A DNA stretch of 34,578 bases from Bacillota bacterium (lineage in GTDB: Bacteria > Bacillota > UBA5301): contig JAAYHC010000042.1 of NCBI GenBank assembly GCA_012735535.1, forward strand, positions 1 to 34,578, in the 5' to 3' direction. The notes beneath the pieces are model-generated. The model saw only the letters and a program-made list of their open reading frames with translations, made no database searches and was not told where the DNA came from. Shown one piece after another: positions 2,876 to 19,066 of this stretch (within the stretch, counting starts at the first letter, position 1; the number at the start of each line of letters is the position of its first letter). Both the position numbers and the translations under genes were made by a program.

Positions 2876-3886
2876 TCAGCAAATGCGGGGTAACAACTCA
2901 CCCTCCAGCATATCCAAGATCCGCTCTCCCCCGAAGCCGGTGCGCAGTGTGACCAAGCCAGGATGATCAGCGATCACTTCTCCAATAATCACAGCTTGCC
3001 GACCTAGCGGGTGATCATGCATCGCGGAGAGGACTTTCTCTGCTTGGCTTTGTGGAACAATTACTAATACCTTCCCCTCGTTAGCCACATATAAAGGGTC
3101 AAATCCCAGCATCTCGCAGGCCCCGCGCACTCCGTCGGTAATCGGCAAGTCGGTCTCGTTGAGCCGGATACCGACCCCGGACTGCGCAGCTATTTCATTG
3201 AGCGTGGTGGCAACTCCACCCCGCGTTGGATCGCGCATCACATGCACTTCTTCAGTGGCCGTAAGGATCCGTTCGATCAGCCCGTTAAGTGGGGCACAAT
3301 CGCTCATTAGATCCGTTTCCCAGCTAATCCCGGAGCGTTCGGACATGATGGCCATCCCATGTTCGCCGATGGTACCGTTGATAATCACCACATCTCCCGG
3401 CATAGCCAAAGAACCGCTGATATTACGTCCTTCGGGCACCACCCCAATACCGGTGGTATTAATGTAAAGGCCATCGGCCTGTCCTTTATTCACCACTTTG
3501 GTGTCGCCGGCGACAATCTTCACCCCGGCGGCAGCACAGGTTTCAGCGATGCTTTCAACAATTTTCAGCAAATCCGCCATGAGAAAGCCTTCTTCGATAA
3601 TCAAACCTAAAGTCAGATATAAGGGAGTGGCCCCTTGCACGGCCAGATCGTTCACTGTGCCGCAAACAGCCAGTTTACCGATATTACCGCCGCGAAAAAA
3701 GAGCGGTTGCACAACAAAAGAGTCGGTACTTAAAGCAATTCTTCCTTGCACACTCGGCAAAACAACGGCATCATTTTTCTGCAACAAATACTCATTCCCC
3801 AAGATGTGAAAGAATAGTTCATCCAGCAAGCGTTGGCTGGCACCGCCGCCGGCCCCGTGGCTCAACAAAATGCGCTCGTTTAGCAT
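2876..3886 (-). CDS. hypE: hydrogenase maturation protein HypE (carbamoyl dehydratase)
   Basis: A 336-aa member of the PurM/ThiL-like superfamily. HypE accepts a carbamoyl group from HypF on its C-terminal cysteine and dehydrates it with ATP to thiocyanate, which supplies the CN ligands of the Fe in [NiFe]-hydrogenase. The N-terminal LLSHGAGGGASQRLLDELF and the internal ALSTDSFVVQPLFFRGG and RDPTRGGVATTLNEIA motifs are characteristic. The chain ends in PRIC, the essential C-terminal Cys336. Full length compared with typical HypE (~330-340 aa). The ATG has AGGTG at 5 nt. It starts 9 nt after the hypD stop. Function is assigned from family knowledge with high confidence. Confidence 0.97.
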   Translation of the reverse strand: MLNERILLSHGAGGGASQRLLDELFFHILGNEYLLQKNDAVVLPSVQGRIALSTDSFVVQPLFFRGGNIGKLAVCGTVNDLAVQGATPLYLTLGLIIEEGFLMADLLKIVESIAETCAAAGVKIVAGDTKVVNKGQADGLYINTTGIGVVPEGRNISGSLAMPGDVVIINGTIGEHGMAIMSERSGISWETDLMSDCAPLNGLIERILTATEEVHVMRDPTRGGVATTLNEIAAQSGVGIRLNETDLPITDGVRGACEMLGFDPLYVANEGKVLVIVPQSQAEKVLSAMHDHPLGRQAVIIGEVIADHPGLVTLRTGFGGERILDMLEGELLPRIC

Positions 3887-3895
3887 ATCTTCACC

Positions 3896-5035
3896 TCAAA
3901 CCAGCTGTCGATGTCGTTCATATTTGTAGTAAGCCGCGCATGAGCCTTCACTCGAGACCATGCACGGACCGATAGCACGGCTGGGAGTACAGGCCTTACC
4001 GAACAAGGGGCATTCATATGGCAGGATGACCCCTTTGAGTACATCTCCGCACCGACAACCTTTGATCTCGGATTTGAGCCCGACCAGCCTTTGCTCAGCC
4101 TCAGCAATGGCCTCGGTATTGCGGGCGTTGAACGCCGCATAGGCGTCGGCCAACTCAAGACCGCTGCCCGGAATAACCCCAATCCCGCGCCATTCGGCAT
4201 CCACCGGCTGGAAAAACTCGGCCAAAACCTGCTTAGCCACTTGATTGCCCTCCCAATTGCCCGCCCGGGAGTACGCGTTTTCAACTGTCGCTCGACCCTC
4301 GACCAGTTGGGTAACCAATCGCTCAATACCTAGTAGAATGTCCAAGGGTTCAAAACCGGCAATCACCGCCGGAACCCCATATTTTTCGGGCACCGGTCGG
4401 TAGGCCTCTCCGCCGACCACGGTGCTGACGTGGCCGGGCAAAATGAAGCCGTCGATCTTAACTTCGTCTGCACTTAGCAAGCCTTCCAACGCCGGCGGAA
4501 CCAGCTTATGGACCGAATAAATTTTAAAGTTTCTTACACCCTGGGCGGCCGCCAGCTCCAAAGTGGCTGCCGCCATCGGAGCGGTCGTTTCAAAGCCGAC
4601 GGAGTAGAAAATCACGAGCTTATCCGGGTTCTCCGTAGCAACTTTCAGCGCATCCAAGGGGGAATAGACAACTTGGACTGCCCGTCCGAGTGCTTTGGCC
4701 TCTTGAAGGTTCGCAACCGTCCCCGGAACTTTCATCATATCTCCATAAGTGGTAAGAATTACCTGTTCGTTATTTACTACTTCGATAATGATGTCGATAT
4801 CCCTCTGCGCGGTTACACAAACCGGACAACCGGGACCGGATAATAATTTCAGTCCCTCCGGGAGAATCTGGCGAATACCGTTTCGCGAGATGCTGACAGT
4901 ATGGGTGCCGCAGACCTCCATAAGGTTAATGGGACGCTGAAGAGTTTGAACAGCACGCTTGATTCGTTCGAGCAGTTGCTTGGCGAGGCTTGGATCGCGG
5001 AAACGTTCATTAATGTTGGCCATAAATTCGCTCAT
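3896..5035 (-). CDS. hypD: hydrogenase maturation factor HypD
   Basis: A 379-aa scaffold protein. With HypC it binds Fe and assembles the Fe(CN)2CO unit, receiving cyanide from HypE. Visible family features are CGTHT with Cys42, GPGCPVCV with Cys70 and Cys73, GFETTAPM, and a cysteine-rich C-terminus (CRCGDVLKGV, ECPLFGKACTP, GPCMVSSEGSC) that provides the [4Fe-4S] ligands. GAGGAGG lies 7 nt before the ATG. The start overlaps the hypC stop by four bases (ATGA), so translation is probably coupled. Length matches the family. Confidence 0.97.
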   Translation of the reverse strand: MSEFMANINERFRDPSLAKQLLERIKRAVQTLQRPINLMEVCGTHTVSISRNGIRQILPEGLKLLSGPGCPVCVTAQRDIDIIIEVVNNEQVILTTYGDMMKVPGTVANLQEAKALGRAVQVVYSPLDALKVATENPDKLVIFYSVGFETTAPMAAATLELAAAQGVRNFKIYSVHKLVPPALEGLLSADEVKIDGFILPGHVSTVVGGEAYRPVPEKYGVPAVIAGFEPLDILLGIERLVTQLVEGRATVENAYSRAGNWEGNQVAKQVLAEFFQPVDAEWRGIGVIPGSGLELADAYAAFNARNTEAIAEAEQRLVGLKSEIKGCRCGDVLKGVILPYECPLFGKACTPSRAIGPCMVSSEGSCAAYYKYERHRQLV

Positions 5036-5271
5036 GCACCAGCCTCCTCACGCTCAACCAGTTCGGCCATCTCTTCGAGGATCTTCAGGGTCTCGCGCGC
5101 CCGCTCCTCATCGATCTTTTCCAGCGCAAAGCCGGCATGGATTAACACCCAGTCACCAACCTGAACATCGGGAACCAGGCGAATCCCCACTTCACGAGTG
5201 TTGCCGTAAATCTCGACTTTGGCCAGGAAACCGTTAATTTCCGTAACCTTAGCTGGCACTGCCAGGCACAT
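5032..5271 (-). CDS. hypC: HypC/HybG/HupF family hydrogenase formation chaperone
   Basis: A 79-aa protein starting MCLAVPAKV. The N-terminal Cys2, exposed after Met removal, is the conserved residue that binds HypD/iron and later the large-subunit precursor. AGGAGG lies upstream of the ATG at 5271 with normal spacing. A longer in-frame extension upstream (to 5391) runs inside hypF and is rejected. The gene overlaps the end of hypF by 23 nt and the start of hypD by 4 nt. The C-terminal helix (ERARETLKILEEMAELV) is usual for the family. Only one HypC-type chaperone is seen, consistent with service to a single hydrogenase here. Confidence 0.96.
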   Translation of the reverse strand: MCLAVPAKVTEINGFLAKVEIYGNTREVGIRLVPDVQVGDWVLIHAGFALEKIDEERARETLKILEEMAELVEREEAGA

Positions 5272-7579
5272 CAAGCACTCCTCCTTTAAAAACTGTATGG
5301 CCAAGTATGGCTTGGCCGGCCGAAATCCCTCCGTCATTAACCGGTAACACACGCGGGAATAAAACGGTGAACCCTTGGGAGCCCAAAGCATCCAGCAAAT
5401 GTGCAGTTAAATATCGGTTCTGAAAAACCCCGCCGGAAAGAGCTACCGTAGTAATCCCCTCGGCTTCCGCCGCCCGGCAAAGCATTTCGATCATCACGGC
5501 AGCCATGGTATGGTGAAAACGGGCGGCCAACTCACCAGGGTCTTCTTTGCGTTGCCAACGTTGCCACAGGTCAGCCCAGAGGGGAGTCGGATCAATCAAC
5601 AATCCGTGCTGATCTGGCCTAATCTCAAATTCCAGTCTAGTTTCCCAGTTACCTGCTAAAGGTGAGTGAATGGCGGCAACTTCCAATTCAATGGCCGGCT
5701 GGCCTTCATAGGTGCTGCGGCGCGTGATTCCCAGCAAAGCGGAGACCGCATCAAACAACCGGCCGGCACTTGAGGTTGGTGGAGAGTTTAACCCCAGTTC
5801 GAGCTGGCGGCTGACCACCCTCCCCTGACCGGATAGGCCGCAATCTGCGGCAAACCTATCGGCTGCTTCAAGGCCTAGATACGTGTACAAATGACTATAG
5901 GTCATCCGCCATGGTTCCCTAATCGCCACTTCTCCCCCGGGCAAGGCGGTATACGCCAACCGACCAATTCGCTCAAAGTAGGGTAGTTGTCCTTTGAAAA
6001 GTTCAAACCCCCACAATTTGCCGTCACTACCATACCCGGTCCCGTCACAGATTAGCCCCAACACCGGACCGGTCCAATTGTGCTCGAGCAGGCAAGCGGC
6101 CAGATGCGCTTGGTGATGCTGTACGGCAAGCGTCGGAAGATCTCTGCTCTTGGCCCATTTTAGTGCGGTTTTGGTGCTGCGATACTCGGGGTGCAAATCG
6201 TGGACCACCAGCTCCGGTCTGGTCTGGAAGTAATGTTCGTAGCGACTAATCCCCTTTTCCAGATAACTGATTGATTCGAGGTTGTTGATCTCGCCAATAT
6301 GCTGGCTCAGGAAATAGCGCCGGTCCTTGGTCAGACAAAAGGTATTCTTCTCATCGCCGCCAAAGGCGAGCGTATGTCCGGCGCTTAATTGAAAGTCGAT
6401 CGGTCCTGGAGCATAGCCCCTGGCCCGTCTGATCGGCCTGACCGTCCCGGCTGTCATGGCCAGGACGGAATCATCACAACGGTTAAATATTTCCCGGTTA
6501 TGAAAGAGAAATGTATCCACAATCGGCCGTAGTTTTTCCAAAGCCTCTCGGTTATCCATGACCAACGGGTGATCGGAAAAATTTGCACTCGTAGCCACCA
6601 AGCATTCCAGCCCATCCGCAAACAACAACATGTGTAGCGGTGTATAGGCGAGCATTACCCCCAAACGATCCAGGCCTGGAGCTACGGAGGGCGCTAAGTT
6701 AGTGGCGGCCGGATTTTTCGTCAGCAATAAAATTGGCTTACGCCAAGAGGTGAGTTCCTCAACCTCCTCCGGCTCAATCAGACACAACTTGCGAACAACC
6801 TCTAAATCGGGTACCATCACGGCGAATGGCTTGGCCGGACGGCTCTTGCGCTGACGCAACTTCGCCACGGCCTCTTCATTGTAGGCATCGCAGACCAAGT
6901 GAAATCCGCCGAGTCCTTTGACGGCCAGGATTTGCCCGGCGCGCAAACGGCTCCGGGCCTCACGTAAGACCTCAGCGCTAGATGGGAGCTGCTCCGGCGG
7001 CTCGGGTCCATGATCCAGCCAAATAACCGGGCCGCATTTGGGGCAGGCATTCGGCTGAGCATGAAAACGGCGATTGGTCGGATCATCATACTCGGCTTGA
7101 CATTCCGGACACATCACAAACGGGGCCATCGTCGTAAACGGCCGATCATAAGGCAGATTTTTGACGATGGTGAACCGAGGGCCACAGTTGGTGCAATTAA
7201 TGAATGGATAGCCCCAGCGGCGGTCAGCGGGCGAAAAAAGCTCTCTAGTGCAGTCCGCACAGGTACCCACATCCGGAGTTACGAGCACGGTCGTCTCCTG
7301 CGCTCCCTGGCTATGATCAATGGCAAAATCCACATAACCCTTGGGGTCGACCCACTCCACCGACAACTCTCTGATCTCAGCCAGGGGAGGTTTGGCGACC
7401 GGAATTCTTTCCGTAAAAGCCAAAATTGTCGAGCGCTGCCCTTCAACTTCGATCACGACACCTTGAGAGCTGTTGTAGACTCGACCGGCTAACCCAAATT
7501 CGTGGGCTAAGCGGTAAACAAAGGGGCGGAACCCAACACCTTGGACCACCCCATTAATCCGGAGTATTGCCGCTTCCAT
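5249..7579 (-). CDS. hypF: carbamoyltransferase HypF
   Basis: A 776-aa multidomain enzyme. It converts carbamoyl phosphate and ATP to carbamoyl-adenylate and passes the carbamoyl group to HypE. Domains in order are an acylphosphatase-like domain (VVQGVGFRPFVYRLA, residues ~10-90), two C4 zinc modules (CADC...CTNC and CPEC...CPKC, ~105-185), a YrdC-like domain (~205-375), and a Kae1-like domain with the metal-binding HHQAHLAACLLEH motif. Two adjacent ATGs (7582 and 7579) are possible. The second is 7 nt from GGAGG and is used. A longer upstream frame would run into hypB. The gap to hypB is 17 nt, and its 3' end overlaps hypC. Full length for the family, with no missing catalytic block noticed. 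Confidence 0.96.
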   Translation of the reverse strand: MEAAILRINGVVQGVGFRPFVYRLAHEFGLAGRVYNSSQGVVIEVEGQRSTILAFTERIPVAKPPLAEIRELSVEWVDPKGYVDFAIDHSQGAQETTVLVTPDVGTCADCTRELFSPADRRWGYPFINCTNCGPRFTIVKNLPYDRPFTTMAPFVMCPECQAEYDDPTNRRFHAQPNACPKCGPVIWLDHGPEPPEQLPSSAEVLREARSRLRAGQILAVKGLGGFHLVCDAYNEEAVAKLRQRKSRPAKPFAVMVPDLEVVRKLCLIEPEEVEELTSWRKPILLLTKNPAATNLAPSVAPGLDRLGVMLAYTPLHMLLFADGLECLVATSANFSDHPLVMDNREALEKLRPIVDTFLFHNREIFNRCDDSVLAMTAGTVRPIRRARGYAPGPIDFQLSAGHTLAFGGDEKNTFCLTKDRRYFLSQHIGEINNLESISYLEKGISRYEHYFQTRPELVVHDLHPEYRSTKTALKWAKSRDLPTLAVQHHQAHLAACLLEHNWTGPVLGLICDGTGYGSDGKLWGFELFKGQLPYFERIGRLAYTALPGGEVAIREPWRMTYSHLYTYLGLEAADRFAADCGLSGQGRVVSRQLELGLNSPPTSSAGRLFDAVSALLGITRRSTYEGQPAIELEVAAIHSPLAGNWETRLEFEIRPDQHGLLIDPTPLWADLWQRWQRKEDPGELAARFHHTMAAVMIEMLCRAAEAEGITTVALSGGVFQNRYLTAHLLDALGSQGFTVLFPRVLPVNDGGISAGQAILGHTVFKGGVLDVPGSAS

Positions 7580-7596
7580 CATCGATCCTCCAGTAG

Positions 7597-8253
7597 TTAC
7601 CTTTGTTTCGCGGCTACCTGCTCTTTCAGCCAATTACACCAGACATCCATACCATCGCCTCTAGTTGCGGAAGTTTCGAAGACGATCACCTCAGGATTGA
7701 TCTCCCGTAGGTCTCCCAGAGCGCTCTCTTTGTTAAAACCGCTGACCTCTAAAAGATCGATCTTGTTTAACAAGCAAACCTTGGCTCGCTGAAAGATGCC
7801 AGGATATTTCGCCGGTTTGTCGTCTCCTTCGGGAATGCTGAGCACGACGATTTTGGCATCCTCGCCTAAATCGAAGGTAGCCGGACAGACCAAGTTGCCC
7901 ACGTTCTCAATAATCAGCAGATCTAGCTCGTCCAAATTGAAACGGCTCAGCGCCTCCTCCAACATCTTGGCATCCAAGTGGCAGGCGCCATGGGTTTCAA
8001 TTTGATAGACCGGAACCCCATGCCGGGCAATTCGGTCGGCATCGCGGGTTGTCGTGATATCTCCCTCGATCACCGCCAATCTGAGCTCGTCCTTCAACCG
8101 TGTACAGGTAGCCTCCAGTAGGGTAGTTTTTCCGGCCCCGGGAGAGCTGATGAGGTTGATGACAAAGATGCCTTTGTCGGCAAAGATTTGCCGCAAGCCC
8201 GCCGCCAAACGGTCGTTTTTGCCTAAGACATTTTTTCTGACTTCAATTTCCAT
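7597..8253 (-). CDS. hypB: hydrogenase nickel-incorporation GTPase HypB
   Basis: A SIMIBI-class GTPase of 218 aa that works with HypA to insert nickel into the hydrogenase large subunit. The P-loop is SSPGAGKTT (36-44). The inter-subunit metal site is present as Cys91-His92 (GACHLD) and Cys123 (NLVCPATF). The guanine-specificity motif NKID is at ~163-166. The N-terminus is short and lacks both the His-rich stretch and the CxxCGC high-affinity nickel motif found in some HypB proteins, so no nickel-storage role is indicated. The ATG at 8253 has GGAGG at 7 nt. An upstream in-frame start at 8310 would overlap hypA and is less likely. Confidence 0.96.
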   Translation of the reverse strand: MEIEVRKNVLGKNDRLAAGLRQIFADKGIFVINLISSPGAGKTTLLEATCTRLKDELRLAVIEGDITTTRDADRIARHGVPVYQIETHGACHLDAKMLEEALSRFNLDELDLLIIENVGNLVCPATFDLGEDAKIVVLSIPEGDDKPAKYPGIFQRAKVCLLNKIDLLEVSGFNKESALGDLREINPEVIVFETSATRGDGMDVWCNWLKEQVAAKQR

Positions 8254-8272
8254 CACTATACCTCCACTTACC

Positions 8273-8617
8273 CTAATCCGCTGTTTCGAGATAATCGATA
8301 AACAGCTCATCTCCCGCCGAGCGTTTCAGGTCCCGTGATCGACATTGTGGACAACGAAACTTCATGTTTTCTATTATAAACTCCGCACCGCAATCCTGGC
8401 AAACCGCCTGCAAGGGACGGACCTCGACCTCCAACTCGGCTCCTTCAGCTACCGTTCCTTCACTAACCACTTCAAAGCTAAACTTGAGCGCCTCCGGAAC
8501 TACCCCGGCCAGCTCGCCGGCGACGACTTTGATTTTTTTCAAGCGCTCTACACCATGCTTTTGACATTCCTCGGTAATGAGGTCGAGCAGCGACAGCGCA
8601 ATGGATAATTCGTGCAT
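8273..8617 (-). CDS. hypA: hydrogenase nickel metallochaperone HypA
   Basis: A 114-aa protein that binds Ni through its N-terminal Met-His-Glu (His2) and delivers it with HypB. A structural zinc site is visible as Cys73-x2-Cys76 and Cys89-x2-Cys92 (CQDCG and CPQC). The ATG is preceded by GGGGAGGAG. The length is normal. It lies 19 nt before hypB and about 66 nt after the maturation protease, in the order used by many hydrogenase operons. Confidence 0.96.
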   Translation of the reverse strand: MHELSIALSLLDLITEECQKHGVERLKKIKVVAGELAGVVPEALKFSFEVVSEGTVAEGAELEVEVRPLQAVCQDCGAEFIIENMKFRCPQCRSRDLKRSAGDELFIDYLETAD

Positions 8618-8683
8618 GTACTCCTCCCCAAAATGACAAAAATAGACGGGTGATAACCATAATTTATCACACCGTCAGTAAAT

Positions 8684-9196
8684 TTACCCATTCTCAATGG
8701 ATTGTTTTGCTTCTTGAATAACAAGTTCACAGACCTTGTCCAATTTGGCCGCGAGCTCCGGGCTTAACTCCAGGTCCAGCTCGATCGCTTTAGGTTCAAT
8801 ACCATAGACGATCATCTCATCCGGCATATTACCCGTCTGCCTGGCCAGCGCAATGACCTCATGCAAATTAAGCTGGTGCATAGATGTTACTGGCATCCGT
8901 TCGAAAACAACATCATCAGTGGAAAACCGGTATACGGTGGCGGGTTCGCCTCCCCCTTTAACCGCATCAATAACGATAACCTTCTTCGCACGGCTAAACG
9001 GGGTCAAGAGGTCCAGACCGGATGTACCTCCATCCATCACCTCTACGCCCTCGGGCACGCCGAGTTCGTAGATGCGGCGAACCGCGTGAATACCAAACCC
9101 GTCGTCTTTAAGGAGAAGGTTCCCGATCCCCACGATGAGGATCGGGACCTTCTCCTTTGCACCTTCGTTAGGCTTTTTTCCGGATAGGTTGTTCAT
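8684..9196 (-). CDS. hydrogenase maturation protease (HyaD/HybD/HycI family)
   Basis: A 170-aa endopeptidase that removes the C-terminal extension of the hydrogenase large subunit once nickel is in place. The family opening VGIGNLLLKDDGFGIHAVRR contains the Ni-sensing acidic residue. The second acid lies in MDGGTSGLDLL and the metal-binding His in SMHQLNLHEV, the three ligands expected from E. coli HybD/HycI. The only in-frame start before the motif is the ATG at 9196. It lies inside the end of the cytochrome b gene (29-nt overlap) and has a poor ribosome site, suggesting coupled translation. The matching cleavage substrate is the large subunit two genes upstream. Confidence 0.93.
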   Translation of the reverse strand: MNNLSGKKPNEGAKEKVPILIVGIGNLLLKDDGFGIHAVRRIYELGVPEGVEVMDGGTSGLDLLTPFSRAKKVIVIDAVKGGGEPATVYRFSTDDVVFERMPVTSMHQLNLHEVIALARQTGNMPDEMIVYGIEPKAIELDLELSPELAAKLDKVCELVIQEAKQSIENG

Positions 9197-9776
9197 AACC
9201 GGTAATCATGCCCCGCATCAGGTCTAAGCCATGATAGAAGCTCAAGTAGACGTGGATACCGGTCGTGATGATGAAGAGCCAACAACCAAGGAAGTGCCCT
9301 ACCCGCACCCAGTAGAGTGATGCGCCAAATCTCGCCCACTCAAACCCGGGGAGCATATAGAGCGCATAACCAGTAATCGCTTCGAAGATCATGAGGAATA
9401 ACCACATGCTGTAGGTTAGACGCTGACCAGGATTAAGGTGCCCGTCTTTCGGCTCAACATCGCTGAACCACAGGTAATACTTGACCAATGGAACCAGGTC
9501 TTTGGTATGGCGCAGATAGAACCAGATCTGTTTGTAATAGCCTGTTACCAGGGCGTGGTAAACTTTGACGATCAAGTTCATCGTCACCACATACATTGCT
9601 AAGAAATGGACGTATCTGGCGCCATTCATCGCCCCCGGAAACCAGAGGTCACCAGGATAGTGGATATACATTCCTGACCAGGCCAAAAGGACCATACACA
9701 AGGCGTGAATCCAGTGCATTATCCTAATCGCAAGGGGCTGATCAGGCTTTCTTTGCACCACAGCTTTTTCAGCCAT
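9168..9776 (-). CDS. hyaC: Ni/Fe-hydrogenase b-type cytochrome subunit
   Basis: A 202-aa membrane protein with four predicted transmembrane helices. Histidines are suited to bind two b haems: IMHWIHAL near the start, ARYVHFLA and VYHAL in helix 2, and GHFLGCW...GIHVYLSFYHG near the end. It anchors the periplasmic hydrogenase dimer and passes electrons to quinone. GGAGG lies 8 nt before the ATG at 9776. An upstream in-frame start (9806) overlaps the large subunit and is rejected. The small subunit has its own C-terminal hydrophobic anchor, as expected for this type of complex. The name follows E. coli usage and does not assert orthology. Confidence 0.92.
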   Translation of the reverse strand: MAEKAVVQRKPDQPLAIRIMHWIHALCMVLLAWSGMYIHYPGDLWFPGAMNGARYVHFLAMYVVTMNLIVKVYHALVTGYYKQIWFYLRHTKDLVPLVKYYLWFSDVEPKDGHLNPGQRLTYSMWLFLMIFEAITGYALYMLPGFEWARFGASLYWVRVGHFLGCWLFIITTGIHVYLSFYHGLDLMRGMITGYEQPIRKKA

Positions 9777-9799
9777 TAATTTAACCTCCTTCTCCTGGT

Positions 9800-11341
9800 C
9801 TAGCAACCAATAGTGAATTTAGCGGCAATTCGTTCTTTCTCCAAATCGACTACGTGTACAGCACAGGCTATACATGGGTCATAGGAACGAATAATCCGGG
9901 TCAACTCGATCGGTCTCGAGAGGTCCTTGATCTCCGTGCCGATCATCGCGATCTCGTACGGACCAGGCTGCCCGGTGATGTCACGCGGGCTGGCGTTCCA
10001 ACCGGTCGGGATAATCATCTGGTAATTGGTGATACGACCGCCTTCTGCCTCGAGCCAGTGGCCGATCGCCCCGCGCGGAGCCTCGTCCAGACCATAGCCA
10101 CGGCCGCTGCCCGGTTTGTACTGAGCACATGGCACCTTGCCATCCGGTTTCAGCTCGGTGATCCAGTTCAGTATATTGTTGGCAATTAACTGAGCTTCCA
10201 GCGCGCGGGCAGCAATTCTCGCCAGAACCGACGGGCCGATCTTCAGCTTGGCTGCCAGATCGAGTAGGTTCGGATCTTGACGGACCAACATCCGGGCTAG
10301 TGGACCAACCTCCATCGCTTTGGTGTTGTAGCGCGGAGCCTTGAGCCAGGAGTATTTTTCGCCGCGGCGCGGATCGCTCGGTACACCGGTGAACTTCGGC
10401 TCGGTGACTCCGTCGCCGGGATGTCTCGGATTACCATCTTGATAATACGAATAAGCTACATGCTCAACAATCCGGGATTGATCGAATTCCTGGACATTAT
10501 TGATGTCGCCGTCCATGATCACGCCACGCGGCAGGAGGCCGTTGTACGGGTCGCGATCGGCGCCTTCGAACGCACCGTAAGCCAGGAAGTTACCCGGGCC
10601 AACACCGATGTTACCGTAGTCAATGTAGTACGGAGCAACAGCCAAAACATCCGGGACATATTTGGTATCGATGAAGTCTTTGAGTTCTTTAGCATAACCG
10701 ATTAACTCGGTGACCAAGGTCGGAGTGACCTTCGGGGTCATACCACCGGCAACGATACCGACGACATGCGGGAATTTTCCGCCGAGCAGAGCAATGGCTT
10801 CGCCGACCCGCTGGTACATGCGGACAGCTTCGATGTAGTGTTTGGTTGCCACGATGTTGATGTCGGTCGGCAAACGGAAGTCATGATCCCACCGCGGTGT
10901 GAACGGAGCGGTATCACCCGACTGGATCAGGCTCTTCAAGTCGAGCAACTCAGGATCGTTTCCGGTGTATTGGGCAACAGCGGTCGGATCAACATAGTCG
11001 AGTGCGACCAAGTGATAAAAGTGCAAGATATGGGATCCAAGAAATTGGAAGCCATTGATAATGTTGCGGAGGATCCGGGCATTTTCTGGGATGTCAATTC
11101 CGTAAGCCATTTCGATGGCTTTTGAACCCGCCGTTGCGTACGGAATCGGACAAACACCACACGCACGCTGGGAGATCAAAACGGCATCCTCGGCCTTGCG
11201 ACCCCGCAAGATTTGCTCCAGACCACGGTAGAGAGTACCCATAGTCCAAGCATTAACGACTTTATTGTTTTCGACTTCAACTTGAATTTTTAAGTGACCC
11301 TCAATACGGTTTACCGGGTCGACAGTAATAATCTGACTCAT
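9800..11341 (-). CDS. hyaB: [NiFe] hydrogenase large (catalytic) subunit, group 1 type
   Basis: A 513-aa subunit carrying the Ni-Fe(CN)2CO active site. Nickel ligands are visible as Cys61-x2-Cys64 in the N-terminal RACGVC and Cys490-x2-Cys493 in the C-terminal DPCIACAVH. A 17-residue tail after His496 is the expected protease-removed extension, so the subunit needs Ni-dependent processing. Residue 68, normally the conserved His of the CxxCxxxH motif, is Tyr here (CGVCPIPYA; codon TAC at 11138-11140). The N-terminal NRIEGHLKI is typical. The subunit has no signal and should be exported by the Tat system in complex with the small subunit. It lies 24 nt after the small-subunit gene. A group 1 membrane-bound uptake enzyme is inferred from the Tat small subunit and the cytochrome b. 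Confidence 0.96.
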   Translation of the reverse strand: MSQIITVDPVNRIEGHLKIQVEVENNKVVNAWTMGTLYRGLEQILRGRKAEDAVLISQRACGVCPIPYATAGSKAIEMAYGIDIPENARILRNIINGFQFLGSHILHFYHLVALDYVDPTAVAQYTGNDPELLDLKSLIQSGDTAPFTPRWDHDFRLPTDINIVATKHYIEAVRMYQRVGEAIALLGGKFPHVVGIVAGGMTPKVTPTLVTELIGYAKELKDFIDTKYVPDVLAVAPYYIDYGNIGVGPGNFLAYGAFEGADRDPYNGLLPRGVIMDGDINNVQEFDQSRIVEHVAYSYYQDGNPRHPGDGVTEPKFTGVPSDPRRGEKYSWLKAPRYNTKAMEVGPLARMLVRQDPNLLDLAAKLKIGPSVLARIAARALEAQLIANNILNWITELKPDGKVPCAQYKPGSGRGYGLDEAPRGAIGHWLEAEGGRITNYQMIIPTGWNASPRDITGQPGPYEIAMIGTEIKDLSRPIELTRIIRSYDPCIACAVHVVDLEKERIAAKFTIGC

Positions 11342-11365
11342 CTACTCTGCTTCCTCCTTTCGCCC

Positions 11366-12451
11366 TTAAGCCTCAGTTTTCGCCTGTTCCTCATGGGCCG
11401 CACGCTTACCCAGCTTGCCTTTGGCGGCAGCGCCTACAGCGTGTACGCCGATACCAATGGCCGTAGCGGCTCCAAGCACGGTACCGATCAGATCGGCATC
11501 GGCACGTATACCGGCCCAACCAGGTAGCGCCAGATCTGGCAAGCGATCGTGGAACGGCATGAAGGCATCTGGGAAGCTCGGTTCGACACAACCGATGCAA
11601 CCGGCACCGACAGCAACACACCAGCTTTTACTACCATTCCAGCGGATCTGCGGGCAGTTAGAGTGGGTGTTCGGGCCTTTGCACCCTACCTTGACCAAAC
11701 AGTAATCGCGACCGACTTCGGTATCGCCATATTTTTCAACGTACATCCCTTCGTCAAACGAGGCACGACGTTCGCAATTGTCATGGATGCACTGGCCATA
11801 AATGAACTTCGGACGCCCAAAGCTGTCAAGTTCAGGCATACCAAACATCAAGACGTGAACAACAGTTGAAATCAGCCAACTCGGGTTAGCTGCACAACCA
11901 GGGATGTTGATAACTTTCTCTTTTCCGATAATTTCGCTAACCGGTTTAACCTGGCCTGGATTAGGTTTGGCAGCGGGAATGCCACCGTAGGCGGCACAGG
12001 AGCCAAGAGCGATCACCGCTTTTGCCTTAGCCGCAACCTCTTTCAACACGTCATAGAAGTTACGATCAGCAATCATGCCATAACCGTCTAGGGTCGGAAC
12101 GGCTCCTTCGATCACAGCAATGTAGTTACCGGCCTCTTTCTCGATTGTCTCATGCAATACCTCTTCGGTCTGCGCACCTTGTGCGGCCATAATTACTTCG
12201 ATATACCGAACTGAAAGATGGTTGAGGATGACGTCAACCGCATTCGGCGAATCAGCATTTAAGAAAGATGTACTACAACCGGAACATGAACCAAACTCAA
12301 GCCAGACAACAGGTGGTTTCTTTGCACTAGCAGCCAAAACCTCAGCCACTTCCGAAGCAGACATTTCTGAGAGGCCAAGAGCCGCTGCTACCCCGCCGCA
12401 GATTTTCAAGAAGTCTCTACGGCTAACCTCGCGGAACAATTCACGACTCAC
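11366..12451 (-). CDS. hyaA: [NiFe] hydrogenase small subunit with Tat signal
   Basis: A 361-aa electron-transfer subunit. The twin-arginine motif SRRDFLK (10-16) is followed by a hydrophobic segment, so the dimer is exported folded. The proximal cluster site is GSCSGCS with Gly, not Cys, between the ligands. The extra cysteine of O2-tolerant MBH enzymes is therefore absent at this position. The distal site has IHDNC and YCLVKVGC. At the medial site the order is CPQIRWN, SWC (Cys278), GCIGC, where [3Fe-4S] enzymes have Pro instead of Cys278; a [4Fe-4S] cluster is predicted. A C-terminal hydrophobic helix (~320-345) plus a charged tail forms the membrane anchor. The start is GTG at 12451 with AGGAG at 10 nt. 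First gene of the hydrogenase operon. Confidence 0.96.
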   Translation of the reverse strand: MSRELFREVSRRDFLKICGGVAAALGLSEMSASEVAEVLAASAKKPPVVWLEFGSCSGCSTSFLNADSPNAVDVILNHLSVRYIEVIMAAQGAQTEEVLHETIEKEAGNYIAVIEGAVPTLDGYGMIADRNFYDVLKEVAAKAKAVIALGSCAAYGGIPAAKPNPGQVKPVSEIIGKEKVINIPGCAANPSWLISTVVHVLMFGMPELDSFGRPKFIYGQCIHDNCERRASFDEGMYVEKYGDTEVGRDYCLVKVGCKGPNTHSNCPQIRWNGSKSWCVAVGAGCIGCVEPSFPDAFMPFHDRLPDLALPGWAGIRADADLIGTVLGAATAIGIGVHAVGAAAKGKLGKRAAHEEQAKTEA

Positions 12452-13982: not shown

Positions 13983-15614
13983 TTAGATGAGGACAATTTC
14001 GCCCTCACGGTCGAGAACAGCCTGCGCGATATTGGCTGCATGATCGGAAACACGCTCTAAATTGCTGAGAATGTCAAGATAAATGATCCCCGCCTTGGGG
14101 ATGCATGACCCCTCGTTCAAACGGAAGATGTGGTTATTGCGCAGTTCACGCTCCATCTGGTCGGTCTGGTTCTCCAAGCGTAAAACTTGCCGGGCCAGGG
14201 TATAATCATCGGTTTCCAATGCTCGCAAAGTCCCAGCATAAGTCTCCCTGACCTGAGCAAAAATCGCATTCAGCTCCTGGTAGGCCAGCTCGGAAAACTC
14301 AATCCGCGAATCCTCCCGAAACTCGGCCAGTTCGGCGACGTTTTCGAGATGATCGCCGACCCGTTCAATGTCGTTGACCACATGCATCAAATTGATCAGC
14401 CGATCGGATTGCTCTTCGGACAAAGATTTTTGGGAAAGATCCGCGAGATACTCGGTAATTTCCTTCTGAAAGTGGTTGACCACTTTCTCAATCTCAAAGA
14501 CACGGGCCGCTGCTTTCATGTCTTTCTGAATCACCGCCGCTTTGGCCCGATCGAGCATGTCGATGGTTAAATTACCCATCTGGACCAGTTCCTTGGTGAC
14601 TTGGCCCAAGGCCACTGCGGGAGTATTGAAGAGGTGCCGGTCCAAGAAACGAGGACCGGAGATTTCGTCCTTCTCACCCGGCAGAATCGTCATCACGATT
14701 TTGACCATTACATCAACTAAAAAGACCCAGATTACGGTGTTCAAAATATTAAAAGATGTATGAGCGTTTGCGATCAAGCGATGGATATCCGCATTGCCGG
14801 AAATCGCCAGAACGAAGGCTTTAAACTGAGGTAAGAAAAGAATAAAGATAATTGCCCCGAAGATATTAAAGAGGCCATGAGCCAGGGCCGTTCGTTTTGC
14901 CGCCCGGCTCGTTCCAATACTAGCCAAGGCGGCGGTAATACAGGTGCCGATATTGTCGCCGAAAAGAATCGGCAAGGCGGCATCGAAGGTGATCAAACCT
15001 TGGCTCGCTACGGCCATCAGAATCGCAATCGTGGCACTACTGCTCTGGATGATGCAGGTCATCACCACGCCAATTAAAACACCTAAAACCGGATACCGAC
15101 CAAAAGCCGCCATCAAATGGACAAAAGCTTCATTGTCGCGCAAGGGCTTCATCGCAGAGCTCATCGCGTCTAAGCCCATAAATAAAAGCCCGAGACCCAG
15201 GATCACCAGCCCGACGTACTTCTGACTCTTGCGCTTACAGATCAGATTGATCAAAAACCCAATACCCACCATCGGCAGGGCCAGCGCGGTGATATTAAAA
15301 GCAATTAACTGAGCCGTTATGGTAGTACCGATATTGGCACCCATGATAACGCCGAAAGCCTGGCGCAGAGTCATCAACCCGGCGTTGACAAAACCAACCA
15401 GCATTACGGAGGTAGCACTGCTGCTTTGAATGATCGCAGTCACGACCGCACCGATAATCACCCCGCGCACCGGTGTGGTCGTTAACACCTCGAGCAGCCG
15501 GCGCATCCGATCCCCGGCAGCCTTTTGCAGACCGTCACCCATGATCCCCATGCCGTAGAGGAACATGCCGAGTCCGCCGACAAAATTGAAGAGCATCGTC
15601 ATTGTCGCGTTCAT
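13983..15614 (-). CDS. Na+/phosphate cotransporter family protein with C-terminal PhoU domain
   Basis: A 543-aa protein. Residues ~1-310 are a duplicated NptA/PNaS-type membrane domain with the two signature repeats ending in QSSSAT (AVVTAIIQSSSATSVM and GVVMTCIIQSSSATIA), which form the Na+ and phosphate path. Residues ~340-540 are a PhoU-like helical domain, including HVVNDIERVGDHLENV and LERVSDHAANIA, which bind metals or interact with partners. Likely activity is Na+-coupled phosphate or other anion movement; direction is not clear from sequence. The start ATG is preceded by a GAGGTAGGA site. It is the first gene of the symporter-TPR-DUF554 group. Confidence 0.92.
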   Translation of the reverse strand: MNATMTMLFNFVGGLGMFLYGMGIMGDGLQKAAGDRMRRLLEVLTTTPVRGVIIGAVVTAIIQSSSATSVMLVGFVNAGLMTLRQAFGVIMGANIGTTITAQLIAFNITALALPMVGIGFLINLICKRKSQKYVGLVILGLGLLFMGLDAMSSAMKPLRDNEAFVHLMAAFGRYPVLGVLIGVVMTCIIQSSSATIAILMAVASQGLITFDAALPILFGDNIGTCITAALASIGTSRAAKRTALAHGLFNIFGAIIFILFLPQFKAFVLAISGNADIHRLIANAHTSFNILNTVIWVFLVDVMVKIVMTILPGEKDEISGPRFLDRHLFNTPAVALGQVTKELVQMGNLTIDMLDRAKAAVIQKDMKAAARVFEIEKVVNHFQKEITEYLADLSQKSLSEEQSDRLINLMHVVNDIERVGDHLENVAELAEFREDSRIEFSELAYQELNAIFAQVRETYAGTLRALETDDYTLARQVLRLENQTDQMERELRNNHIFRLNEGSCIPKAGIIYLDILSNLERVSDHAANIAQAVLDREGEIVLI

Positions 15615-15760: not shown

Positions 15761-16141
15761 TTACCGCACACCCCAGCAGGGGCAAGCGCCACACCACCAA
15801 CCGCTACCCATCATCCTACCGCCGAAACGGCCCATTGGTCTACCGAAGTAGCGGACGCCGCGCCGGAAACCCGGCTGGCCCCAGGGACTAATTTTGGACG
15901 GATCGAAATCGTCAGACTTAAGATATTCGATCCGACTATCCAAATTCTGCTTGAGCCGCTCAGCCTGCTCTGGGGTGAGTTTGCCGGCCTCGGCCAAGGC
16001 GTCAAGGTATCTCTTTTCCGCTTCGAGTCTTTGCACGTACGCCTCCGTAAGTGCAGACAAACCGCTGTCCGCGGCCCAAACCGGCAAGACACCGATCAGA
16101 GCCAAGATCGCCGACAAAATGAGAATGGTTGCTTTTTTCAT
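15761..16141 (-). CDS. small secreted DUF2680-like protein with Met/Trp/Cys-rich tail
   Basis: A 126-aa protein with a clear SPase I signal (residues 1-24, ending VWA-AD). A helical segment (~28-78) matches the DUF2680 pattern: AEKRYLDALAEAGKLTPEQAERL. The C-terminal 40 residues are rich in Gly, Arg, Met, Trp and aromatics, and end with Cys117, Cys120 and Cys122 in WWCGACPCWG, plus a GGRMMG motif. Such a tail could bind a soft metal or anchor to the envelope; this is inference. The ATG at 16141 is 8 nt from GGGAGG and is preferred over the ATG at 16147. It has its own promoter with tandem CTTCAT boxes, 84 nt downstream of the kinase gene. The molecular function of DUF2680 is not known to me. 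Confidence 0.75.
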   Translation of the reverse strand: MKKATILILSAILALIGVLPVWAADSGLSALTEAYVQRLEAEKRYLDALAEAGKLTPEQAERLKQNLDSRIEYLKSDDFDPSKISPWGQPGFRRGVRYFGRPMGRFGGRMMGSGWWCGACPCWGVR

Positions 16142-16178: not shown

Positions 16179-16211
16179 AATATAGGCAGAGGTTATGAAG
16201 AGCTGATGAAG
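16179..16211 (-). promoter_or_regulatory. promoter with tandem 11-bp response-regulator boxes upstream of the DUF2680-like gene
   Basis: On the minus strand, CTTCATCAGCT (16201-16211) is followed directly by CTTCATAACCT (16190-16200), identical at 9 of 11 positions and in head-to-tail register. Five nucleotides later comes TATATT (16179-16184), a good -10 box. There is no recognisable -35. The boxes occupy that region, as in promoters activated by OmpR/PhoB-type regulators. The same layout precedes the response-regulator gene at 18357-18389. Confidence 0.7.
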
Positions 16212-16225
16212 TTCCGGTAAATATC

Positions 16226-17647
16226 TTATGAAACATAACGCGGCAGGACAAGGCGAAAAGTACTGCCCTGGTTAACCTGGCTCTCAACGCCAATGCTGCC
16301 CTGATGCGCCTCAACAATTTCTTTAACCAGAGCCAGACCGATCCCGCTTCCCCCGGTACTGCGCGCCCGCGAAGGATCTGCCCGGTAGAAACGATCAAAA
16401 ATATACGGCAAATCAGCCTCGGGAATGCCCTGCCCGGTGTCGGAAACAGTGATGATCAGCTCACTACTTGTAGCCTGGATATCCACTTTGACCGTGCCGC
16501 CGGCTTCGGTGTACTTCAGCGCATTGCTCACCAGGTTGGTTACGGCGCGTAGCAGGAGTTTCCGATCTCCAAAAACCCAGCCGCTCGTGGCCCCGGTGAC
16601 GCTCAATGCGACTCCTTTCTCGGTAAACATGGGAGTCATCCTGGCCAAGAGATTCTTTGTCTCCGCCGCTAGGTCAACGGCAGCGGGCTGGAGCACCGGT
16701 TGCTCACTATCAACCACGGTCAGCATCTGTAAATCGGAAATCAGCTCCGACAACCGGTCGATCTCCTCCGCCAACTCGGTAAAACGCTCGGGGGTAGGCT
16801 CTAATACGCCGTCTTGCAAAGCTTCGATATAGCTTTTCAGCGTAGTCACCGGGGTCCGTAGTTCATGAGCCACATCGGCAGTGAACTTCTTGCGCAATCG
16901 CGCTGCCTGATCGAGGCGCTCGGCCATCGCATTGATGCTGGCAGCCAAGGTAGCCAGCTCATCCGCCCCTTTGACCCGAGCGCGAGCTGATAAGTTTCCG
17001 CTTTTGAGCCTTTCGGCAACTCGCGTCAGTTCGGTAATCGGCTGGGAGATCCGGCGGGCAAAAGCCAAGCTAAGCACCAGTGCCAACATTCCCGCGACCA
17101 GTGATGAATAGAGCACCGCTTCCCGCATGGTCTCGCGATATTCGAGGTCTTCTTGGCGCCACCGGCCAAGTGCTCCGAGTACGGCTATCTCCGCGGTGCC
17201 GACCTGCCGCCCCTCTACGATCAGGGGATAAGTAAAGAGATTGCCCTCGGCAACATATTCGGCGAACGAACGATTCCACGTTTGGCGCATCATCCCCCGT
17301 CCCATCATGCCGCGGCGCAGCATCCACGTATGCATCCGGCCGGTAGTAGTATCCAGCACTACCTGGTTATTAAGGTTCTTGACCCGAACAACCACATTGG
17401 CCAGCGGAGCCACCGTATCAAAATGTTCGGCAACCACCGGCCAACTATTATAAGTTGCATATAATTCCTGAATTATTGCGACGATCCTCAGGTTTTGCTG
17501 CTCAATCGTTTGATCGAGATAAGAAGCAAAGCGTTGGTTGAGAAGAGTATTAATCCGGACAGCGAAGAGTCCGGAAGTCAAGAGCGCGGTCCCCAAGACG
17601 ACCAACAATACTTTTACCCGTAAACTGATCCGGTATCGGTTAAACAT
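16226..17647 (-). CDS. membrane sensor histidine kinase (HAMP-HisKA-HATPase)
   Basis: A 473-aa kinase. TM1 is at ~11-32, an extracytoplasmic loop at ~33-177, TM2 at ~178-196, HAMP at ~197-250, HisKA with phospho-acceptor His261 (VAHELRTPVTTLKSY), and an HATPase domain with N, G1 (VSDTGQGIPEAD), F and G2 (GGSGIGLALVKEIV) boxes. The loop has six methionines between 105 and 120 (MHTWML, GMMGRGMM), a pattern seen in Cu(I)/Ag(I)-binding proteins; the ligand here is unknown. The ATG at 17647 overlaps the response-regulator stop by eight bases, so translation is probably coupled. An upstream in-frame start at 17680 would lie deeper in that gene. The two genes form a cognate pair. Confidence 0.93.
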   Translation of the reverse strand: MFNRYRISLRVKVLLVVLGTALLTSGLFAVRINTLLNQRFASYLDQTIEQQNLRIVAIIQELYATYNSWPVVAEHFDTVAPLANVVVRVKNLNNQVVLDTTTGRMHTWMLRRGMMGRGMMRQTWNRSFAEYVAEGNLFTYPLIVEGRQVGTAEIAVLGALGRWRQEDLEYRETMREAVLYSSLVAGMLALVLSLAFARRISQPITELTRVAERLKSGNLSARARVKGADELATLAASINAMAERLDQAARLRKKFTADVAHELRTPVTTLKSYIEALQDGVLEPTPERFTELAEEIDRLSELISDLQMLTVVDSEQPVLQPAAVDLAAETKNLLARMTPMFTEKGVALSVTGATSGWVFGDRKLLLRAVTNLVSNALKYTEAGGTVKVDIQATSSELIITVSDTGQGIPEADLPYIFDRFYRADPSRARSTGGSGIGLALVKEIVEAHQGSIGVESQVNQGSTFRLVLPRYVS

Positions 17648-18338
17648 CCGGTTCAACCCCAAATTTATACCCAACCCCATATACGGTCAGGATATACTGA
17701 GGATTCTGACTGTCGGTTTCGATCTTTTTGCGGAGGTTCTTAATATGCACATCAATGGTCCGGTCATAACCTCCATAATCGAAACCTTGTAAACGTTCGG
17801 TCAACAGCGAGCGGGTAAAGACCTGGCCAGGGGATTGAGCAAGTAAAGTCAGCAGTTTAAACTCTGTCGGCGTCAAACTTACGGGCTGATCAGCCTTGAA
17901 CACTTCATACCCGTTGAGGTCGATAACCAAGTCCGACCGGTTGAATCGCAAAATCGCATCAGAACATCCAAGCCGGGCCGTTCTGCGCAGCACCGCTTTG
18001 ACCCTCGCCACCAACTCCCGGGGGCTAAACGGCTTGCAAACATAATCATCTGCCCCCAGTTCCAACCCGGCAATCCGGTCGCCTTCCGCAGACTTGGCCG
18101 TCAGCATGATCACCGGGACCTGACTAAACTCCCTAATTTGTCGGCATACTTCTTCGCCGGAAAGTCCTGGGAGCATAAGATCCAGGATAATCAGATCCGG
18201 TTCTTCGGTAATGGTCAAGCGAATGGCTTCCAGTCCGTTATCCGTGGTGAGCACCTTGAAACCGGCCTTGACCAAATAGGCCTTGACAACTTCCCTGATT
18301 TTCGGTTCATCATCAATGACCAGTATCTTACAGCCCAT
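17640..18338 (-). CDS. OmpR/PhoB family response regulator
   Basis: A 232-aa transcription factor. The receiver domain (~1-118) has the acidic pair in VIDDEPK, the phospho-acceptor Asp in LIILDLMLPGLSGEE and Lys in VCKPFSPRE. The winged-helix DNA-binding domain (~130-230) has the usual TPTEFKLLTLLAQSPGQVFTR and YDRTIDVHIKNLRKKI. The ATG at 18338 is 6 nt from GGGAGG and starts MGCKILVIDDE. A longer frame to 18419 would run into nth and adds no domain. Tandem boxes upstream (18368-18389) match those at the DUF2680-like gene, indicating autoregulation. Regulators of this family usually bind such direct repeats as head-to-tail dimers. Confidence 0.95.
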   Translation of the reverse strand: MGCKILVIDDEPKIREVVKAYLVKAGFKVLTTDNGLEAIRLTITEEPDLIILDLMLPGLSGEEVCRQIREFSQVPVIMLTAKSAEGDRIAGLELGADDYVCKPFSPRELVARVKAVLRRTARLGCSDAILRFNRSDLVIDLNGYEVFKADQPVSLTPTEFKLLTLLAQSPGQVFTRSLLTERLQGFDYGGYDRTIDVHIKNLRKKIETDSQNPQYILTVYGVGYKFGVEPDV

Positions 18339-18356
18339 CGTTTCCTCCCTCTCACA

Positions 18357-18389
18357 AGAATAGGATACAATTATGAAGATTTCGCGAAG
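18357..18389 (-). promoter_or_regulatory. autoregulatory promoter of the two-component operon
   Basis: On the minus strand, CTTCGCGAAAT (18379-18389) and CTTCATAATTG (18368-18378) lie in tandem with an 11-bp period. A 5-nt spacer and a -10 box TATTCT (18357-18362) follow. The spacing from the second box to the -10 is identical to that at 16179-16211. The boxes overlap the last codons of nth. The first box is the less conserved copy. Confidence 0.6.
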
Positions 18390-19066
18390 AAAAATGGGCA
18401 CTCTCCACTCAACGGACACTTCTCACATAGTGGGTTCCGCGGTCGGCAGACCGTACGACCGAAATGAATCAGCAACACATGCAGATCACGTTGGATCGCC
18501 GGCGGAGTATGGGTTTCCAGTTCAACTTGGAGTTTTTCCGGTTGTGATTGATTAACGATCTTTAATCGGTTCAGGACGCGGAAAACATGGGTATCAACGG
18601 GTAAAGCAGGCTTGTTAAACCCGAAGGCCCAAACACAAGCCGCCGTTTTCAGTCCCACCCCCGGCAGGGTGGTCAGCCACGCATAGGCCTCCGCCCGCTC
18701 CAGCTCACCCAGCCAATCCAGGGCGTATTCTCCCCTTTCGGCTTTGAGCGCGGCCAGTACTTGCTTAATGCGCGCGGCCTTACTATTGGCCAAGCCGCCG
18801 GCCCGAATCGTCGCCGCTAACTGTGCTTCATCGGCCAGAGCCAACGCTTCCCAACTCGGGTAAGTTTGTCGTAAAGAATTGTAGGCAAGTAGGCAGTTGT
18901 GATCCGAAGTCGCCTGGGAGAGGATCGCAATGATCAGAACTTTTACCGGGTCGCCTGCACCGAGGTGGAGCGGGCTCTGCTGATGTAACAGCGCAGCCGC
19001 AGGCAGCGACGCCGCCAGTATGTCGTGTAGATGCTGAAGTCTCTGCCGAAGTGCACCGATAATCAC
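18371..19066 (-). CDS. nth: endonuclease III family DNA glycosylase/AP lyase
   Basis: A 231-aa base-excision-repair enzyme of the HhH-GPD superfamily. The helix-hairpin-helix LPGVGLKTAACV carries catalytic Lys140, and Asp158 lies in LPVDTHVFRVL. The C-terminal [4Fe-4S] loop is complete (Cys207-x6-Cys214-x2-Cys217-x5-Cys223). It therefore looks like an active bifunctional glycosylase acting on oxidised pyrimidines. The region before the HhH (LIIAILSQATSDHN) varies from the usual LSAQATD, so it may be a divergent paralogue with altered substrate range. The start is GTG at 19066 with a weak AAGG site. It is followed by the two-component operon, whose promoter lies in its 3' end. Confidence 0.88.
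   Translation of the reverse strand: MIIGALRQRLQHLHDILAASLPAAALLHQQSPLHLGAGDPVKVLIIAILSQATSDHNCLLAYNSLRQTYPSWEALALADEAQLAATIRAGGLANSKAARIKQVLAALKAERGEYALDWLGELERAEAYAWLTTLPGVGLKTAACVWAFGFNKPALPVDTHVFRVLNRLKIVNQSQPEKLQVELETHTPPAIQRDLHVLLIHFGRTVCRPRNPLCEKCPLSGECPFFFAKSS

Follow-up and report, generated by a model that had tools for sequence, protein, structure and literature searches.

CopR of Corynebacterium glutamicum occupies a single binding place in the genome, with the operator TGAAGATTTgaTGAAGATTT; binding is lost when three bases are changed inside this operator, and the activation by CopR of copRS, the operon to which it belongs, and of the neighbouring copper genes requires that copper be added (PMC3140484). 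More generally, regulators of the OmpR/PhoB type occupy direct repeats arranged head-to-tail, on which they sit as strictly spaced tandem dimers, as in the structure of M. tuberculosis PhoP bound to DNA (PMC4832192). The repeats of E. coli PhoB and M. tuberculosis PhoP are about 7 bp long with a 4-bp spacer, giving an 11-bp period and tandem binding, which is similar to the sites described below. In promoters activated by PhoB, the operator takes the place of the -35 element and lies about 10 bp from the -10 element.

We analyzed a stretch of 34,578 nucleotides from a Bacillota bacterium (contig JAAYHC010000042.1, hereafter the window), in which two promoters share a tandem operator. An earlier note on this DNA knew of no described regulon of this kind, a statement that has to be withdrawn because the CopR regulon of C. 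glutamicum had already been described (PMC3140484). The operator of the window is nearly equal to the CopR site (TGAAGATTTnnTGAAGATTT), since the CTTCA core and the 11-bp period match; the reverse complement of the CopR site, AAATCTTCAtcAAATCTTCA, has its core and period as in CTTCATCAGCTCTTCAT here, the comparison being made on these two features alone. Both systems use an OmpR-type regulator, and activation of its own operon together with an adjacent secreted-protein gene cluster, as in CopRS, is predicted here. CopRS of C. glutamicum works beside CsoR for cytoplasmic copper, and the genome of the window also encodes CsoR and CopA, close together on one contig elsewhere. The two systems differ in that the extracytoplasmic part of CopS is limited to about 30 residues, whereas the kinase of the window has a much larger Met-rich sensor, and in that CopR targets include a multicopper oxidase and the CopB ATPase, while the target here is a DUF2680 gene. 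The system of the window is a CopR-like direct-repeat regulator system, of a kind already known. As far as our searches show, two things are new, namely a regulon reduced to two promoters for which only one reader is possible, and the link of DUF2680 to such a promoter code across the phylum. The only paper that a literature search for DUF2680, a family without an assigned function, returned concerns toxin-antitoxin networks and mentions it once; nothing useful was found in the literature on the YclJ box of B. subtilis.

Genes and tandem operators of the window

The three genes of the circuit lie on the minus strand. The OmpR/PhoB-type response regulator (17640..18338) is composed of PF00072 and PF00486 domains (110.8 and 96.6 bits, both exceeding the cut-off), its D53 is invariant in 6 of 6 aligned sequences, and its recognition helix reads RTIDVHIKNLR. 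The sensor histidine kinase (16226..17647) contains HAMP, HisKA and HATPase domains and an extracytoplasmic Met/His-rich loop (GRMHTWMLRRGMMGRGMM); its H261 is invariant in the relatives aligned, and residues 101-130 of the sensor loop are too uncertain in the structure model (pLDDT 35-44) for a structure search. The DUF2680 gene (15761..16141) encodes a small secreted protein of 126 aa (PF10925, E=1.4e-8, 35.2 bits, cut-off 25) with a signal peptide, a helical hairpin and a Met/Gly/Cys-rich tail, and DUF2680 tails are generally rich in Gly, Met and Cys. No copper gene was found within the window. Judged from the ORF list alone, a separate cluster on the minus strand (2876-12451) looks like a [NiFe]-hydrogenase that includes a cytochrome b subunit, together with hyp genes for maturation; its last frames resemble HypE and HypD.

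Reading the minus strand directly, we found that the DUF2680 gene is preceded by the boxes CTTCATCAGCT (16211-16201) and CTTCATAACCT (16200-16190), the spacer CTGCC (16189-16185) and the -10 element TATATT (16179..16184), which lies 10 bp past the last CTTCAT. The regulator-kinase operon is preceded by CTTCGCGAAAT (18389-18379) and CTTCATAATTG (18378-18368), the spacer TATCC (18367-18363) and the -10 element TATTCT (18357..18362), and its boxes overlap the final codons, at the 3' end, of an nth-like gene lying upstream (18371-19066, minus strand). Two 11-bp CTTCAT-type boxes therefore stand head-to-tail at both promoters with identical period, orientation and spacing, as the earlier note had read them, and the last hexamer lies exactly 10 bp ahead of a TAnnnT -10 element in each case. 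The consensus it had given, CTTCATNANNT, fared less well at the regulator promoter, where neither box fits it fully on the minus strand and the first one matches CTTC alone. Its claim that the DUF2680 promoter has no -35 element was borne out, as the promoter scan gave no sigma-70 promoter with a -35 element at either site. Two weaker boxes, TTTCATAAGAT (16233-16223, overlapping the kinase stop codon) and ATTTACCGGAA (16222-16212), lie 5' of the DUF2680 pair on the minus strand, and because they share its 11-bp phase, the array at this promoter may comprise four units. Arrays of three to five boxes also occur in the related genomes G002, G005 and G040.

The genome-wide scan that the earlier note had proposed was performed by pattern searches on 1.94 Mb (98% complete) and returned just two clean sites. 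With YTTCAY-N5-YTTCAY-N10-TANNNT and at most one mismatch, three matches were obtained, namely the two promoters and one site inside a long coding frame, while the reversed-pattern control gave 0 matches in the genome. The stricter CTTCAY form with up to two mismatches gave nine matches versus two in its control; at 0-1 mismatch only the two promoters remained (0 mismatches for the DUF2680 operator and 1 for the regulator operator), and the rest of the nine comprised one out-of-register match on the DUF2680 array, five matches in reading frames and an ambiguous one at C60:4898. The two-promoter arrangement is not due to chance. As with CopRS-type regulators, the sites are few and the regulator's own promoter is among them; the regulon in this genome probably consists of these two promoters only.

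Conservation of the boxes in related genomes

The order regulator, kinase, DUF2680 gene is the same in G002, G005 and G040, where the DUF2680 homologue lies directly 3' of the kinase, and G001 retains the kinase-regulator pair with its DUF2680 gene elsewhere. Loss of the boxes in relatives keeping both genes had been named as an outcome that would speak against the shared operator; G002 and G040 carry boxes at both promoters, and G005 carries boxes at the DUF2680 promoter and one good box at the regulator promoter. In the same place as in the window, the regulator promoter of G001 reads CTTCGTAAAATCTTCAT-N10-TATACT and that of G002 CTTCAGAGTATCTTCAC-N10-TAAAGT. Among 31 orthologous or near-orthologous loci, the architecture with period 11 and spacer 10 gave 22 sense matches in 15 loci and one antisense match, alternative periods and spacers gave 0-2 matches in the same loci, and paralogous systems gave two sense and two antisense matches. 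With the thresholds applied, a tandem box could not be recognized clearly in about half of the orthologous loci.

The boxes of several families stand upstream of a small gene that is itself placed ahead of the regulator and that encodes DUF2680 in G235, G370, G140, G193, G283 and G100, a CopZ-like protein in G355 and a Met-rich small protein in G234. The same arrangement of boxes was also found ahead of a Gly/Met-rich SHOCT protein (four boxes; L256, G003:C119 around 42209), a DoxX protein (L064, G003:C67:21045), a YHS-domain protein (L059, G005:C10:2204) and, in G001, a 4Fe-4S-type protein named by eye. These sites suggest that the regulon may be somewhat larger in the relatives than in the genome of the window.

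After a search for DUF2680 in 300 genomes of the phylum, we read the sequence upstream of the gene in 101 cases; 83 of these regions are non-redundant. In these 83 regions, TTCAY pairs occurred 28 times at 11 bp, 9 times at 22 bp and 5 times at 33 bp, versus 0-4 times at every other distance from 5 to 39 bp. TCAY pairs at 11 bp numbered 45, whereas 300 shuffles gave 0.96 on average and 5 at most, and the spacing from TCAY to TAnnnT peaked at 10 bp (32) and 21 bp (29), with 0-10 elsewhere. A strict in-phase TCAY pair was present in 34 of the 83 regions and in two on the antisense strand; the antisense strand and the region farther upstream of the DUF2680 genes held almost nothing of the box pattern. 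A motif-free count gave a similar picture, with identical 4-mers at distance 11 reaching 30.8 per 1000 versus about 4-9 elsewhere, except at 22 bp (16.9). A clear tandem box was likewise missing, with the thresholds applied, from about half of the DUF2680 promoters, and regulators of other types lie near several DUF2680 genes. At the level of sequence, the promoter code kept across the phylum ties the DUF2680 family to OmpR-type signalling.

Some DUF2680 paralogues (L169, L197 and L041, in G010 and G056) lie close behind a small SHOCT-like frame and have no phased boxes, so this control is not common to all members of the family. At DUF2680-RR-HK operons of G235, G140, G193 and G211 (L223, L228, L234, L244), the repeats follow a CTCCAT dialect, and the regulators read RTIDSHIKNLR or near variants (RTVDSH, RAVDSH) instead of RTIDVHIKNLR. 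Covariation of the box dialect (CTTCAY/CTCCAT) with the recognition helix (RTIDVH/RTIDSH) was dropped as evidence, because essentially one clade is concerned and the residue, by alignment to PhoP of M. tuberculosis, is not opposite the changed base.

Copper or another soft metal as the leading candidate signal

We infer copper or a soft metal as the leading, unproven signal of the system. Genes for CopA, CopZ or multicopper oxidase were located within about 10 kb in 12 of 29 orthologous loci versus 2 of 21 control OmpR systems (Fisher p=0.024), and the Met-rich sensor loop of the kinase and the Met/Cys/Gly-rich tails of DUF2680 proteins are sequence features in keeping with a metal. All five plasmid homologues examined (L340, L341, L342, L351, L352) adjoin copper or heavy-metal genes. 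In these plasmid clusters of Bacilli, a homologous kinase and regulator adjoin a small secreted protein or an oxidase, and in three of them, as in the window, a tandem box with 10-bp spacing lies upstream of the target, which is a multicopper oxidase on Carnobacterium pWNCR64 and YdhK on Rossellomorea p25 and a Paenibacillus bovis plasmid (by locus, the oxidase in L341 and YdhK in L342 and L351). The copper lipoprotein CopL of S. aureus is homologous to YdhK (PMC5947656). The plasmid clusters differ from the window in that the target is YdhK (DUF1541) or a multicopper oxidase rather than DUF2680, some stand beside copper or heavy-metal ATPases, and some of their kinases align over the HAMP-kinase half only.

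In the regulator tree, the subclade of the window and the copper-adjacent subclade fall inside one larger, supported clade (99/95) within which their mutual branching is not settled. The nearest relatives have no certain copper gene near the kinase, the matches in G001 and G002 being weak (24-37% identity), and the CopA stretch read in the genome of the window contains no CTTCAY-type operator. With the NCBIfam heavy-metal models TIGR01386 and TIGR01387, the kinase (254.1/292.55 bits) and the regulator (172.9/279.2 bits) remained below the cut-off. A scan of named genomes returned mostly distant kinases, some of which (L087, L089, L090 and L094) lie near CopA or CopZ. A second type of sensor, in L268, L272, L274, L276 and L278, carries the conserved motif W-D-A-x2-H-[ND]-N-x2-C followed by Met/His; these kinases mostly lie near CopA, CopZ or multicopper oxidase, and the motif is a candidate copper site.

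The resemblance to CopR yields a specific and cheap prediction for DUF2680, namely induction by copper or a soft metal and metal binding, and the circuit suggests a metal-defence job for this family. It can be proposed tentatively, at somewhat less than an even chance, that DUF2680 proteins are widespread secreted Cu(I)/soft-metal binding proteins in Bacillota-type bacteria, under phylum-wide control by OmpR-type regulators via phased CTTCAY/TTCACA arrays. If so, the genome of the window would contain a minimal response made of one kinase, one regulator, one effector and two promoters.

The reader of the boxes and the proposed circuit

Exactly one PF00486 (Trans_reg_C) domain was found in the genome of the window, that of the local regulator; in G002 the domain occurs only in the regulator orthologue and in a 61-residue remnant. 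Since it has the only OmpR/PhoB-type DNA-binding domain in the genome, the local regulator is almost certainly the reader of the boxes. The sites have the traits of OmpR/PhoB-family targets (head-to-tail repeats, an 11-bp period and a fixed position relative to the -10 element), and with one such regulator and two operators the genome is an unusually clean case, because no paralogue makes the matching ambiguous. Direct activation by the local regulator, as proposed in the earlier note, is well supported by the sole PF00486 protein and the conserved architecture, binding itself being predicted. That interpretation stands because the boxes are non-random and conserved and have a sole possible OmpR/PhoB-type reader. 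What the DNA itself shows is the presence of the boxes, the fact that they are unique and conserved, and the single candidate reader, and this strongly supports the binding logic.

The following scheme is what we infer for the steps from phosphorylation through binding to activation, as well as for the metal signal and for what DUF2680 does. The kinase would sense an extracytoplasmic signal at its Met/His-rich loop, with Cu(I) or some other thiophilic metal as the likeliest one, and would phosphorylate D53 of the response regulator. Once phosphorylated, regulators would bind the 11-bp CTTCAY repeats head-to-tail, with one monomer per repeat and two to four per promoter, replacing the missing -35 element and recruiting RNA polymerase to the -10 element located 10 bp past the last hexamer. 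Expression of two units would rise as a result, the kinase-regulator operon itself and the gene of the secreted, Met/Gly/Cys-rich DUF2680 protein; the probable role of this protein is to bind metal outside the membrane or to act back on the sensor. We consider it reasonably likely that the locus is such a self-contained, positively autoregulated CopRS-like circuit, metal-sensing, with two output promoters and inducing the secreted DUF2680 protein.

The same two-promoter circuit could instead respond to general envelope stress as BaeSR or CpxAR do, DUF2680 then being a periplasmic helper of the Spy/CpxP kind. BaeS is the best NCBIfam match of the kinase (266.2 bits), and DUF2680 proteins are small, secreted and helical with LTxxQ-like motifs by eye; but the scores for BaeS (266.2/500 bits) and BaeR (233.9/380 bits) are far under the equivalog cut-offs, the Pfam LTXXQ/Spy model matched neither the window protein at E<=1 nor one relative at E<=10, and the operator and the gene neighbourhoods of the homologues point to copper. 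We therefore regard envelope stress as a rather unlikely signal. Kinship of DUF2680 with Spy/CpxP/ZraP was dropped after the two members scanned gave no Pfam match. That the boxes are read by a regulator of another family, or arose by chance, is the least probable reading, and very improbable: binding of the local regulator is a prediction, which leaves room for it, yet the shuffle and reversed-pattern controls argue against chance, and head-to-tail 11-bp repeats fixed to a -10 element are a hallmark of OmpR/PhoB-type regulators (for the repeats, PMC4832192), of which the genome has one.

A phosphate response of the PhoP/PhoB type, with the boxes acting as Pho boxes, is decidedly improbable, if slightly less so than a chance origin or another reader. 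TTCACA-N5 repeats resemble Gram-positive PhoP boxes, the 11-bp architecture is that of PhoB/PhoP, and a gene for an Na/Pi cotransporter with a PhoU-like domain adjoins the system in G000, G001 and G002; in the window it follows the DUF2680 gene (13983-15614, minus strand), with 76-80% identity in G001 and G002. However, no boxes were found upstream of the cotransporter in G001, where the kinase directly precedes it, and it is separated from DUF2680 in G000 and G002 by a hairpin followed by T, terminator-like by eye and absent from the program's list of terminator-like sites. The box core and the recognition helix also differ from those of PhoB/PhoP, the helix here reading HIKNLR, unlike the HIxRLR/HIKRLR of most controls, and the equivalog cut-offs of PhoB (227.5/296.2 bits) and PhoR (209/334.2 bits) were missed. 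A Pho regulon is unlikely because the cotransporter was found in 0 of 27 other orthologous neighbourhoods and the genome contains no operator beyond the two, so that no pst/pho promoter has one. The position of the cotransporter gene suggests family-level synteny without a shared operator.
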